A stretch of DNA of 6,085 nucleotides from Candidatus Thorarchaeota archaeon. GTDB taxonomy: Archaea > Asgardarchaeota > Thorarchaeia > Thorarchaeales > Thorarchaeaceae. The DNA lies in the NCBI GenBank assembly GCA_016841005.1, contig JAEORG010000401.1:1-6085 (forward strand), given 5' to 3'. The notes beneath the pieces are model-generated. The model did not search any database and was not told the DNA's origin. It was given only the letters and a program-made list of their open reading frames with translations. Each line of letters opens with the position of its first letter. Position 1 is the stretch's first letter. Positions 521 to 4,287 of the stretch are shown here, one piece after another. The position numbers were made by a program, and so were the translations under genes.

Positions 521-625
521 TGTCCATTTTAACGATTTTGAGTTTGTAGGTGCTCTTAAGCAGAATTCTACAATGGTAGTATGAACTGAAAGGTTCTGAG
601 GACTTAGGGAGTTTGGAGAATGAGC

Positions 626-1831
626 ATGGTATCTATTGTGAGATATAGTACACGAGCAGGACCAGATAATCAATTAATCCACCGTATATCTCACGACAAC
701 ATCAAATTAAAGAATCATGGAGTAACATTTGTAGATCTCTCAGGAATCACAAAGATGGAAAATCTCCAGAGAGTCGACATAGCGAACAACAGACTAGAAA
801 GAGTTGATCTTTCACCTCTTTCAGAATGCAAGGAACTTCGTTATCTTGACATTAGTGAGAATAAAATTCGAGAAATTGACCTTTCTCCACTTGAAGCATG
901 CAAACATCTTGAACGTTTGGACCTCTCACATAACATGCTTGCCACTATTGACATTAGTCCTCTCTATAACTGTACTGAGCTCAAGTATCTCTATTTGCAT
1001 TATAATAGCATAAAGAGACTTGATGCAACTGTTCTTCTAAATTGCCCCAACATAGAGCAGCTTACTCTAACCTACGGTGGAACACTAAGTGTTGGCCATA
1101 TTGTAGAAGATGAGAATGGGATTACATACTTCGGTGATCCACTGCTTGATTACGCAATCAAAGAAAAGAAACCATCATGGTTGAACCATGAAAAGATGGC
1201 TCCAGTTCCAAAGAAACAGAATTACTCATGGCTAGTTCGTAAATATGGATGGCAACGGACCAAACGGTGGATGCTCCAGATTAGTAAAATACTTGGAGAA
1301 TCCCATGGATATCCCTTACAGTTGGAGCTCCTCAAGAATTTTGGAATTCCAGAGCTAGCATGTTTCGACGGTTCATTTGAAAAAGTAGTTCAGATGCTTC
1401 CAGATCAAGGTTCGTTTAGAAAAGGACTTGAGATTTTTAGAGGAACCCTACTTGAGGTGTTATACAAACAACTTGAAAATAAAGGAAGTACGTTGTTCTT
1501 TGATATAGATATCTTAAGTACCCAAGATGCGAGTATCCTTATACCTCAGATTCTGAAGCGTAGAAAAAAGGAACTTGACAAAGTCAAGTTACTCTGTATA
1601 GGGCAATCTATTGATTTAACACCTCTCTGGAAGACAGGATATGGATATGAAATCCTACGGGCATTAGGTTTGAAAAAACGAATTCACAAGGAGAGGTTTT
1701 TGAAGGTGAAGAAGGCTCTTGCTGAGATAGGAGTAAAAGTTTCACTGACTCATGATCCTAAAGTATCTAAGAAATATAGACCTCCAACACTCTCAACAAC
1801 ATTATGTAAATTCATCATACCTGAACACTAA
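626..1831 (+). CDS. Leucine-rich-repeat protein with an uncharacterised C-terminal region
   Basis: The protein has 401 residues. I chose the ATG at 626 because GGAG at 615-618 sits 7 nt before it. The in-frame ATG at 620 would be only 1 nt from that site, giving 403 residues. Four complete 24-residue leucine-rich repeats start at residues 47, 71, 95 and 119 (unit: LxxLDxSxNxIxxIDLSPLxxCxx), with partial units on both sides. Each unit keeps a cysteine (C68, C92, C116, C140). Such arrays form curved solenoids for protein binding. There is no signal peptide or membrane segment, so it is probably cytosolic. Residues ~150-401 are a mixed, Lys- and Trp-containing region with no motif I recognise (for example SWLVRKYGWQRTKRW and a later FFDIDILSTQDASILIPQIL). 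Its stop overlaps that of the converging acetyltransferase. The partner protein cannot be told from sequence. Confidence 0.92.
   Translation: MVSIVRYSTRAGPDNQLIHRISHDNIKLKNHGVTFVDLSGITKMENLQRVDIANNRLERVDLSPLSECKELRYLDISENKIREIDLSPLEACKHLERLDLSHNMLATIDISPLYNCTELKYLYLHYNSIKRLDATVLLNCPNIEQLTLTYGGTLSVGHIVEDENGITYFGDPLLDYAIKEKKPSWLNHEKMAPVPKKQNYSWLVRKYGWQRTKRWMLQISKILGESHGYPLQLELLKNFGIPELACFDGSFEKVVQMLPDQGSFRKGLEIFRGTLLEVLYKQLENKGSTLFFDIDILSTQDASILIPQILKRRKKELDKVKLLCIGQSIDLTPLWKTGYGYEILRALGLKKRIHKERFLKVKKALAEIGVKVSLTHDPKVSKKYRPPTLSTTLCKFIIPEH
764..1051 (+). repeat. Four 72-bp leucine-rich-repeat coding units
   Basis: Units start at 764, 836, 908 and 980, each exactly 24 codons long. Protein similarity is high (DLSPL/DISPL and the Cys are conserved), but the DNA copies have diverged. 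The array is therefore old rather than a fresh tandem expansion. Confidence 0.85.
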
Positions 1832-2577: not shown

Positions 2578-2814
2578 ATGAAAAAGAGAATAACCCGAAT
2601 TGCTGCAATCAGTTTAGGACTCTGTTTCGCAATAACATTTCTTTCGGTTGGAGCTGTAATCGTTGCTTATGGGCAAGCGGTTCCACCAGAAACGATTCCA
2701 CCGACTGAAAAACCTGTGAAAAATGAGCCTGTCGTGATTGACGATGGATCTTATGGCGGAGGACCCAAAGTCCCCTTACCAAAAGTTGACCATCGGATGG
2801 ATTTGACGTTATAA
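2578..2814 (+). CDS. Small secreted or membrane-anchored proline-rich protein
   Basis: The protein has 78 residues and an unknown family. The ATG at 2578 is chosen because AGAGGTG (2565-2571) lies 6 nt upstream, an ideal archaeal ribosome site. An upstream TTG at 2497 would add 27 residues in front of a good signal sequence and has no ribosome site. The N-terminus is KKR plus a long hydrophobic stretch (residues 9-31) ending at AYGQA-V (30-35). This fits a cleavable signal peptide cut after A34 or an uncleaved anchor. The outer part is short, rich in Pro, Glu and Lys (PPETIPPTEKP), then a glycine patch (SYGGGPK, 58-64) and an acidic/basic tail. There is no Cys after the membrane segment and no catalytic motif. 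It could be an extracytoplasmic tether or peptide. It lies just upstream of the structured-RNA region, but no terminator separates them. Confidence 0.7.
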   Translation: MKKRITRIAAISLGLCFAITFLSVGAVIVAYGQAVPPETIPPTEKPVKNEPVVIDDGSYGGGPKVPLPKVDHRMDLTL

Positions 2815-2918
2815 AGTCAGGTACTTTGGGATTCAGTCCAAAATGGAAGAAGTAGAGTATACAGAACTTGGAAAATTCAAATCAGAATGACCGAAGTGAA
2901 ACTCTTCGTTTAACGCGT

Positions 2919-2946
2919 CTTTATACCCATGTAGCACACTTTATAC
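2919..2946 (+). promoter_or_regulatory. Twin TATA boxes in front of the structured RNA
   Basis: CTTTATAC occurs twice, at 2919-2926 and 2939-2946, exactly 20 bp apart. Archaeal TATA boxes sit about 25 bp before the start, so starts near 2949 and 2969 are predicted. The first would include the whole 5' hairpin (2964-2990) of the RNA, while the second would begin inside it. No closer TATA-like element serves the regulator gene at 3310. Confidence 0.5.
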
Positions 2947-2963
2947 ATATTCTCCTAAAAAGA

Positions 2964-3281
2964 TCTCAATGGAAAGAAATTTCCATGAGACCATCTTCCA
3001 GTTCCCCCGTACTGGAAGGCAGTGCGTGATTAGGAGAGTATTTCCAAAGGTGCTTGATGAGAGATAGTAATCTCGTATGCTCATGATGAGTATCTCATCC
3101 CAGACGGGATGTACGACGAATAGTCGAATGATACTCTGAGATAATCGTGACTCTTCACCGGTCACACCCAAGTCAACACCCGCCTAGCATCGGTCCATAG
3201 GTATACTCCTCTGTCCATGATTGATAGTCACGGACAGGATCATTGTGGATAGGTGCTAGGCACCAATTTGTCACGCACTGA
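2964..3281 (+). ncRNA. Large structured RNA (independent ncRNA or long leader), family not recognised
   Basis: Helices seen by eye are as follows. H1 is 2964-2967+2969-2975 with 2980-2990 (11 bp, one bulged A, GAAA tetraloop). H2 is 2995-3002/3011-3018 (8 bp). H3, the long-range closure, is 3020-3029/3271-3280 (10 bp perfect). H4 is 3061-3065/3070-3074. H5 is 3088-3094/3130-3136, enclosing hairpins 3096-3101/3106-3111 and 3114-3117/3123-3126 as a three-way junction. H6 is 3147-3151/3161-3165. H7 is a rod, 3182-3191/3252-3261, one G-A mismatch, 3193-3200/3243-3250, then apical 3211-3216/3232-3237 and 3218-3220/3228-3230. H7 contains four G-U pairs that would be A-C mismatches on the minus strand, which favours plus-strand RNA. 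There is no credible ORF and no signature of RNase P, SRP RNA or tRNA. It ends ~30 nt before the regulator at 3310, so a leader or riboswitch-like role is equally possible. Confidence 0.5.
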
Positions 3282-3296
3282 ACCTCAACCATCCTC

Positions 3297-3302
3297 AGGG
3301 TG
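3297..3302 (+). promoter_or_regulatory. Ribosome binding site of the first Lrp-like regulator
   Basis: AGGGTG lies 7 nt before the ATG at 3310 and fixes this start. It sits outside the closing helix of the structured RNA, so it would be accessible unless an alternative fold captures it. Confidence 0.55.
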
Positions 3303-3309
3303 CAATTGA

Positions 3310-4287
3310 ATGGACCAATTAGATAAGAACATAATAGCTCAGCTGATGGGGTGTTCACGAAGATCCTTCCGAAGTATAGCTGACATTCTTGGTATCTCCT
3401 GCCCAACTGTTAAGAAACGGGTCGAGAGACTTCGCCAATTTGGAGTGATTCAAAGATTTTCTGTCGAGATGGCTCAAGAAACACTTGGCACTAGATATGT
3501 AATAGCAGAACTTGAATCAAATGGAACAGGACAGAAAGCTGAATTTTTGCAGAAATTTGATGAACATGAGTGTATACGAGAGGTGTTGATATTAAGTAAT
3601 GGTCATTATTTACTGTTTGCAGAAGTCACACCTAGTGAAAAATCGCAGTGCAAGCAATTTCTTGAATCACTTCCTGATTTGGAATCGTCAAGAGTATCTT
3701 ACATCAATCAAATTCCAAGTGAAACAGTTGGTGGTCAATGTAAATTTGCCAAGAAGGGTGAAAGGGTCAATCTCACTAAGGAACAACTTGAACTATTATG
3801 GTACCTTGCTAGAAACTCAAGAATACCTATCAAGACTCTTTCACGACAAACTGGATATACAATAAAACATGTAAGAAGAATAGTAAGCCAGATACTGGAA
3901 AATCCAGGAATACATTTCACGACTCACTTAAACTTAGTCGCCTCAGGTGATATCAACATTGTTCTTGCAGCGGATTGTGAGGACATTTCCACACCGGCAA
4001 AGATAGCACTTCATCTATCAAAACGATTTCCTCAGGAACATTGGTTCTCGATGAACACAATTGACAGAAACACACTGTACTCATATATGACAGCCAAGCA
4101 TCTTGCTCAGGTTGAACAAATTATGGAATCAACCTTAGCCTATCCTAATGTCTATAATGTTGATGCCAAAATTGTGTATAGTGTATTGAAATCTGAAGGA
4201 CGAAGTGAACAGTTCATTAACGATTTTGCTGCTGATCAACTTAGATTAATTTCTAGGACAAGTCGAAAAAGATTCTCAGGACTTTAA
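3310..4287 (+). CDS. Lrp/AsnC-like regulator with two HTH and two RAM-like domains
   Basis: The protein has 325 residues, about twice a normal Lrp/AsnC protein (~150). Residues 1-50 form an AsnC-type winged helix: it opens MDQLDKNIIAQL, the recognition helix is near CPTVKKRVERL (31-41), then comes GVIQRF. Residues ~58-137 look like a RAM ligand/oligomer domain, with SNGHYLLFAEV (96-106) at the usual G-x-Y-x-L effector loop. The Asp normally following the aromatic is absent. Residues ~155-205 are a second HTH (SRQTGYTIKHVRRIV, 178-192), and ~213-290 a second alpha/beta domain. A basic tail, SRTSRKRF (315-322), ends the protein. It probably binds DNA and responds to a small molecule, but its targets and ligand are unknown. 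AGGGTG lies 7 nt before the ATG. It follows the structured RNA and converges with its paralogue. Confidence 0.92.
   Translation: MDQLDKNIIAQLMGCSRRSFRSIADILGISCPTVKKRVERLRQFGVIQRFSVEMAQETLGTRYVIAELESNGTGQKAEFLQKFDEHECIREVLILSNGHYLLFAEVTPSEKSQCKQFLESLPDLESSRVSYINQIPSETVGGQCKFAKKGERVNLTKEQLELLWYLARNSRIPIKTLSRQTGYTIKHVRRIVSQILENPGIHFTTHLNLVASGDINIVLAADCEDISTPAKIALHLSKRFPQEHWFSMNTIDRNTLYSYMTAKHLAQVEQIMESTLAYPNVYNVDAKIVYSVLKSEGRSEQFINDFAADQLRLISRTSRKRFSGL

Follow-up and report, generated by a model that had tools for sequence, protein, structure and literature searches.

The window analysed here (the whole stretch of 6,085 nucleotides of Thorarchaeota DNA) contains a densely folded region at 2964-3281, shortly before a gene for an Lrp-type regulator, and the question that it raises is whether this region is an RNA in its own right or part of a message. 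The reading preferred here, held with a probability of roughly 0.72, is that the mRNA of the Lrp-type regulator (3310-4287) begins with this stretch as a 5' part some 360 nt long, which stems from a duplicated unit in which a small open reading frame, ORF B, has decayed. Along this mRNA the predicted order of parts is promoter, structured leader, ORF B remnant, hairpin, rod, Shine-Dalgarno sequence and Lrp gene, as mapped below together with ORF A of the companion unit A.

2578-2814, plus strand: ORF A, an intact paralogous small-protein gene of 78 aa with a signal-peptide-like start and no Pfam domain.
2919-2926, plus strand: sequence which we take, from archaeal promoters in general, to be the TATA box of unit B (TTATA at 2921; its spacing to TCTCC is conserved).
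2948-2958, plus strand: 5' strand of leader helix P1, 11 bp with 3030-3040; the 5' end of the RNA is predicted nearby.
2964-2990, plus strand: leader hairpin H1 with a GAAA loop, -11.0 kcal/mol.
2994-3019, plus strand: leader hairpin H2 with a C-rich loop, shuffle P 0.001.
3020-3029, plus strand: 5' strand of the long-range helix, a perfect 10 bp with 3271-3280.
3030-3040, plus strand: 3' strand of leader helix P1 (TTAGGAGAGTA), 11 bp with 2948-2958.
3048-3052, plus strand: Shine-Dalgarno-like AGGTG of the lost ORF B, recognised by sequence; the same place in the orthologous locus L001 precedes an intact ORF.
3057-3143, plus strand: ORF B remnant, frameshifted and shortened, with a putative 3' limit; contains a three-way junction confined to the window.
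3147-3165, plus strand: hairpin GTGAC-(TCTTCACCG)-GTCAC, identical at L001 6688.
3182-3261, plus strand: rod of 10 bp, a G.A mismatch, 7 bp and apical helices, with covariation.
3271-3280, plus strand: 3' strand of the long-range helix, pairing with 3020-3029.
3298-3302, plus strand: Shine-Dalgarno-like GGGTG of Lrp, recognised by sequence; AGGTG stands at the same place in L001.
3310-4287, plus strand: Lrp/AsnC-type regulator of 325 aa (PF13412, 6.7e-14; PF13404, 4.7e-13).

The folded structure in 2964-3281 is real. When its folding energy was compared with that of shuffled sequences, a check proposed along with the original prediction, the plus strand gave an MFE of -127.6 kcal/mol (z -7.22) and 0/100 shuffles were as good; the minus strand also reached a z of -5.70, with 0/100 shuffles as good, so that the strand preference over the whole of 2964-3281 is modest. 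In a scan of the window by 150-nt segments at steps of 50 nt on both strands, the best two of the 238 segments were 2901-3050 (z -4.92) and 2951-3100 (z -4.70), both on the plus strand, and the 218 segments starting outside 2800-3290 had a mean z of -0.23 (sd 1.07, minimum -3.54).

The helices that had been named in this region were recovered at their places, both in the MFE structure and in checks of single helices. The 10-bp pairing of 3020-3029 with 3271-3280 is perfectly Watson-Crick; among shuffles of 2948-3309, 11/500 contained an equal or longer helix closing a loop of at least 100 nt, which makes it mildly unusual only. The GAAA-capped hairpin is exact, with 11 bp and one bulged base (P 0.0025 in 2000 shuffles). 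The rod has its 10-bp and 7-bp helices around one G.A mismatch as described, and its tally has to be revised from 18 pairs with four G-U to 31 pairs with 5 G-U once the apical part is included. The three-way junction is present in the MFE structure as two hairpins around 3087-3138; it lies inside the decayed ORF B and is not conserved as had been predicted. The helices had also been said to nest without conflict, which overlooked P1 (2948-2958/3030-3040), a helix that starts upstream of 2964 and crosses the long-range helix.

As to the statement that the region holds no credible ORF, the remnant of ORF B inside it had gone unseen. The ORFs of at least 50 aa that overlap the stretch are one of 53 aa on the plus strand (2868-3029) and two on the minus strand, of 76 aa (2941-3171) and 77 aa (3173-3406); we know of no relative of any of the three. 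The claim that no known RNA family is involved was borne out: the window yielded no Rfam match at the gathering score, and neither did the related loci L001, L002 and L071. Two matches below threshold were at chance level, the best having 15.1 bits as against a gathering score of 37.7, and a search for tRNA and tmRNA found none.

The identity of the region becomes legible by comparison with a relative. A scan of genome contigs returned four loci, of which L001 and L002 are relevant, both being on one 37-kb contig (C8) of another Thorarchaeota MAG (G001); loci of Halogeometricum and Rhizobiaceae were dropped as weak partial matches. L001 is the orthologous locus and the only close relative reached; close carriers of the unit are the window and this one other genome. 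The gene order LRR - GNAT - ORF A - unit B - Lrp - opposed Lrp is common to both, and their Lrp proteins are 59% alike. Between its leader and its rod, L001 has an intact ORF B of 75 aa (6458-6685); the corresponding piece of the window is a frame-shifted remnant of about 87 nt. Its opening 39 nt match the start of L001 ORF B with a score of 19 (null mean 5.2; 0/5000 shuffles as good), L001 ORF A with P 0.0004 and window ORF A with P 0.059; the gapped alignment of the whole remnant with ORF B is not significant (P 0.148). The unit is homologous and syntenic in the two genomes, and ORF B has been lost in the window. The arrangement of small ORF, hairpin and Lrp recurs at the more distant loci L002 and L071.

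Database relatives of the window's Lrp number 7, the two with names coming from Thorarchaeota MAGs; one relative in a Thorarchaeota MAG is 92% identical, and two more reach 69% and 67%. Contig C8 carries five Lrp-type regulators of one family within about 20 kb, and other genomes of the class to which G001 belongs have up to 11 members of that family. The leucine-rich-repeat protein of the window (620-1831) has no listed Pfam match beyond about residue 145 and has a homologue at the same place in L001.

Because the stretch in L001 consists of a promoter, a leader, an intact small-protein gene, a hairpin with rod and Lrp, it is read as an mRNA leader and intercistronic region. A trans-acting RNA in its own right, structured and about 320 nt long, as the original prediction had it, would agree with the very stable fold, the lack of a family match, the RNA-level selection on the rod and the persistence of the structures despite the loss of ORF B. 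It is nevertheless improbable, since the same stretch encodes a protein in L001 and the layout of promoter and Shine-Dalgarno sequence is that of an mRNA. Moreover, covariance models of the hairpin plus rod (R1) and of the leader (R2), both built containing window B and L001 B, matched credibly in 47 genomes of the class at the L001 locus of G001 alone, under filters strict enough to miss weak matches; one more rod match had an E of 0.38. With an intact ORF in the middle of the stretch in L001, the region is not conserved as a unit free of coding, and the proposal of a single RNA class of about 320 nt finds no support. The case shows that strong folding by itself is no proof of a free-standing RNA class.

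The 10-bp repeats that bound the region could also be the ends of a miniature transposable element, in which the perfect terminal repeats 3020-3029/3271-3280 would find a ready explanation. However, L001 has both ends at the matching positions and different content in between, the end motif TGCGTGATTRGGAGA is found free of mismatches twice in G001, both times at the L001 locus (6 matches when up to 2 mismatches are allowed), and no target duplication is visible by eye. This scarcely credible explanation was rejected on these three grounds.

Covariation with homologues, another check named at the outset, was found in the rod and, on a model-fitted alignment only, in the leader; the junction and the long-range helix were not conserved in the predicted form. 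In the structure-blind test, the fold of one sequence was carried to the other through a structure-blind alignment, and the null scattered the substitutions randomly over the paired positions, ignoring relatedness. Of the 31 pairs of the window rod, one was lost to a gap in L001 and 5/30 were broken (11.9 expected, P 0.0002), with 4 compensated pairs (P 0.009). In the opposite direction 4 of 29 pairs were lost to gaps and 1/25 was broken (6.6 expected, 0/5000), with 4 compensated pairs (P 0.0012). RNAalifold on the two sequences gave 37 pairs, none broken and 4 compensated, under a two-sequence shuffle control that is weak (39/500).

R1 made one independent find, a further rod that follows ORF A of L001 (39.6 bits), brings the copies to three, has another stem sequence and retains 10/10 outer pairs, 5 of them through double change; folded alone, it keeps the outer helix and has a different apex. 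For hairpin and rod in three copies, 9/32 pairs were compensated (0/500 shuffles; 1-2 in slid controls) on a model-fitted alignment, which leans to the model; 4/95 cells were unpaired, and the count of further pair types was not above shuffles (173/500). As must happen with a near-palindrome, the minus strand of both rods gave R1 matches too. After window ORF A there was no R1 match and no rod (post-ORF z 1.36). From these comparisons of sequence, the rod is selected as RNA. Directly before the rod, at 3163-3181, the window has a 12-nt near-duplication (CACACCCAAGTCAACACCC) that is absent from L001.

The hairpin at 3147-3165 is identical in 19/19 positions at L001 6688 and has 4 changes at L001 6004, where the stem reads GTGAT/GTCAT; the alignment of four hairpin rows is poor. 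Inverted repeats beside a regulator gene might be DNA operators for autoregulation by Lrp rather than RNA structure, and at the DNA level GTGAC-N9-GTCAC is indeed a flawless inverted repeat that L001 shares unchanged. Yet the changes at L001 6004 turn both changed pairs into G-U, so that the palindrome in DNA is broken and the stem in RNA is kept, and the stems of the rod vary in sequence and still pair; operators are thus a quite improbable reading of these repeats. A possible sequestration of the Lrp Shine-Dalgarno sequence by a CACC directly upstream of the rod is seen in the two-sequence consensus; its four pairs never vary, and in single-sequence folds this Shine-Dalgarno sequence pairs with other bases in both the window and L001. 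The CACC-bearing loop of the 19-nt hairpin (window 3147-3165, L001 6688-6706) could pair with GGTG Shine-Dalgarno motifs.

The leader occurs in four copies (window A, window B, L001 A and L001 B), in each on the coding strand between promoter and start codon. In the isolated leader of window B the TCTCC/GGAGA pairing has a probability of 0.89-1.0. P1 has a probability of at least 0.77 in three copies and of 0.03 in window A folded to its start codon; in a shorter piece of window A it is part of the MFE structure (z -1.4), and R2 missed this leader, its independent find being L001 A only. At the position that matches H1, L001 B has a hairpin that differs in sequence (P 0.016). H2 is a hairpin in 4/4 copies, with unlike stems, three of the four being better than 99% of shuffles (P 0.001 in window B, 0.003 in window A, 0.006 in L001 A and 0.10 in L001 B). 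Since MAFFT misaligned the leader ends whenever the A copies were included, the leader was counted pairwise and by model. On the model-fitted alignment of three copies, 7/21 pairs were compensated (0/500 shuffles); in the structure-blind count over 12 ordered pairs of copies, the P for broken pairs was always above 0.1 and that for compensated pairs below 0.05 in 2/12. The structure of the leader is probably, though not provably, conserved as RNA.

Since P1 crosses the long-range helix, the two must form either a pseudoknot or alternative folds. Pseudoknot-free folding of the full window RNA prefers the long-range helix, and forcing P1 costs 6.1 kcal/mol; in L001, P1 has a probability of 0.6 and the long-range helix a probability of 0. 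In L001, 9/10 pairs of the long-range helix are kept, one by double change, and one is broken (C.C). The crossing would in principle allow a riboswitch-like switch; two to four copies bear on this.

The four copies agree in the layout of a putative promoter. The spacing from TTATA to TCTCC is 30 nt in both window copies, 29 nt in L001 A and 31 nt in L001 B, which predicts an RNA start inside P1 or slightly upstream of it; in window B another TTATA stands at 2941, 10 nt before TCTCC. GGTG or GTG precedes each of the four start codons. Between the rod and Lrp no TATA or TTTA was found in the window or in L001, so that the simplest route to Lrp leads through the rod; the TATAC inside the rod at 3202 may act as a weak internal start. 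A single transcript would run from about 2948 into Lrp.

With respect to strand, post-ORF segments had a better z on the plus than on the minus strand in window B, L001 A, L001 B and L002; for L071 the values were -2.49 (plus) and -2.63 (minus), and with a different cut -4.07 and -2.78. The ORF B remnant leans to the minus strand (z -2.87 plus, -3.30 minus). Selection on a plus-strand RNA, as had been argued for the whole region, therefore applies to the hairpin and rod, by covariation and strand z, and is at most possible for the rest; the leader of window B shows no strand difference (z -5.29 plus, -5.16 minus).

In L001 B, L002 and L071 the interval from the small ORF to Lrp contains a hairpin or rod. 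The rod of L001 A is followed by another promoter and not by Lrp, and since it is not directly before Lrp, a rod may serve the 3' end of the small gene. The main rival is accordingly that hairpin and rod are a 3'-end structure of the small-protein mRNA (a terminator, a stabiliser or a ribosome-termination structure), with Lrp merely downstream. That third rod far from Lrp speaks for it, as do a hairpin after the small ORF in L071, another in L002 that is followed by five T, and a bacterial precedent of structures just past stop codons that insulate translation (PMC7518266). It is still judged rather unlikely, because the window keeps the rod where only Lrp remains and has none after its intact ORF A, and because the interval between rod and Lrp lacks TATA and TTTA. 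The retention of rod and leader before Lrp after the loss of ORF B, with unit A devoid of a rod, suggests from one lineage only that the structures in the window serve Lrp.

The preferred reading is thus of a cis-acting leader, most likely one that controls the expression of Lrp by a putative mechanism. That the stretch is a cis-acting mRNA structure of some kind is very probable. Points against the preferred reading are the unconvincing structure-blind covariation of the leader, the divergent copy A of the window, the L001 A rod away from Lrp, the TATAC within the rod and the presence of a close unit in one other genome only. It would have originated from a duplicated unit of promoter, structured leader, small exported protein, and hairpin and rod, in which ORF B has decayed in the window, its promoter, leader and downstream hairpin and rod persisting before Lrp. 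P1 would clamp the first bases of the transcript, which might give the mRNA protection, or P1 might take turns with the long-range helix; the amount of transcription or translation that reaches Lrp would be set by the hairpin and rod. The more specific proposal that the rod acts by limiting read-through or translation of Lrp is possible but rather doubtful.

The small proteins beside Lrp-type genes in Thorarchaeota have 75-97 aa at these loci and a signal-peptide-like start (window 2578-2814; L001 5738-6001 and 6458-6685; L002 9650-9907; L071 1739-2029, minus strand). Common to them are a basic N-terminus and a hydrophobic segment; a C-terminal motif is seen in several, and several contain repeated D(H/Y/F)(R/K)xDxP-like or ADP units. 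A profile search listed 17 such proteins, including the window's own, and all those with an organism name are from Thorarchaeota; in the 47 genomes of the class, the profile was present in 2 (E 0.01 or better), and a search with ORF A as single sequence matched in 14/47 at E 1 or better, with a best E of 0.0245 outside G001. Among viral contigs, neither Lrp nor the small ORF had a relative. The family could be one of exported peptide precursors. That it forms part of a lineage-specific, RNA-controlled peptide-regulator cassette, with the exported small proteins as signals to the double-HTH Lrp, their receptor or response regulator, whose output the rod and the pseudoknotted leader switch, would be a speculative and improbable extension.

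The element is narrowly distributed. A DNA search with 2900-3320 gave a match at E 0.1 or better in 11 of the 47 genomes of the class, the matches outside G001 being of 20-33 bases (best E 0.0097). Among the papers listed by a literature search on Thorarchaeota 5' UTRs and Asgard RNA, none described a structured mRNA leader in Thorarchaeota, and a survey of 104 structured RNAs (PMC2864571) makes no mention of Lrp.

Among described systems, a ribosome termination structure (RTS) is a stable structure just past the stop codon in an operon, reported for bacteria (PMC7518266). The L001 B hairpin resembles it in beginning two bases after the stop, and a stable fold soon after the stop, as in an RTS, was found in 4/5 units with an intact small ORF (z -2.8 in L001 A, -5.2 in L001 B (150 nt), -3.6 in L002 (93 nt) and -2.5 in L071 (100 nt)), window A being the exception with 1.4. 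The window differs from an RTS in that its ORF is decayed, its structure has a specific covarying shape and RTSs have been described for bacteria. Coupling in Haloferax is almost abolished once the gap is about 20 nt (PMC10666635). In L001 the gap spans about 150 nt, and termination-reinitiation across it is, by this analogy, unlikely.

The lrp mRNA of E. coli reportedly has a long leader that is targeted by small RNAs, and it resembles the window in joining an Lrp-family gene to a long 5' UTR; it belongs to another domain of life and another protein subfamily, and the likeness meant here is one of description. Structured 5' leaders and attenuators of regulator mRNAs are a known general kind, with which the window shares a long folded region between promoter and regulator gene and covarying stems. 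In contrast to known leaders and attenuators, the element in the window has no Rfam family, is confined to one small group of Thorarchaeota and was derived by the decay of a small gene, any ligand or mechanism being putative. It is a new, narrow example of this known kind, the structured mRNA leader, and one that joins covariation with a readable history, in which a protein gene was lost within a retained RNA frame.
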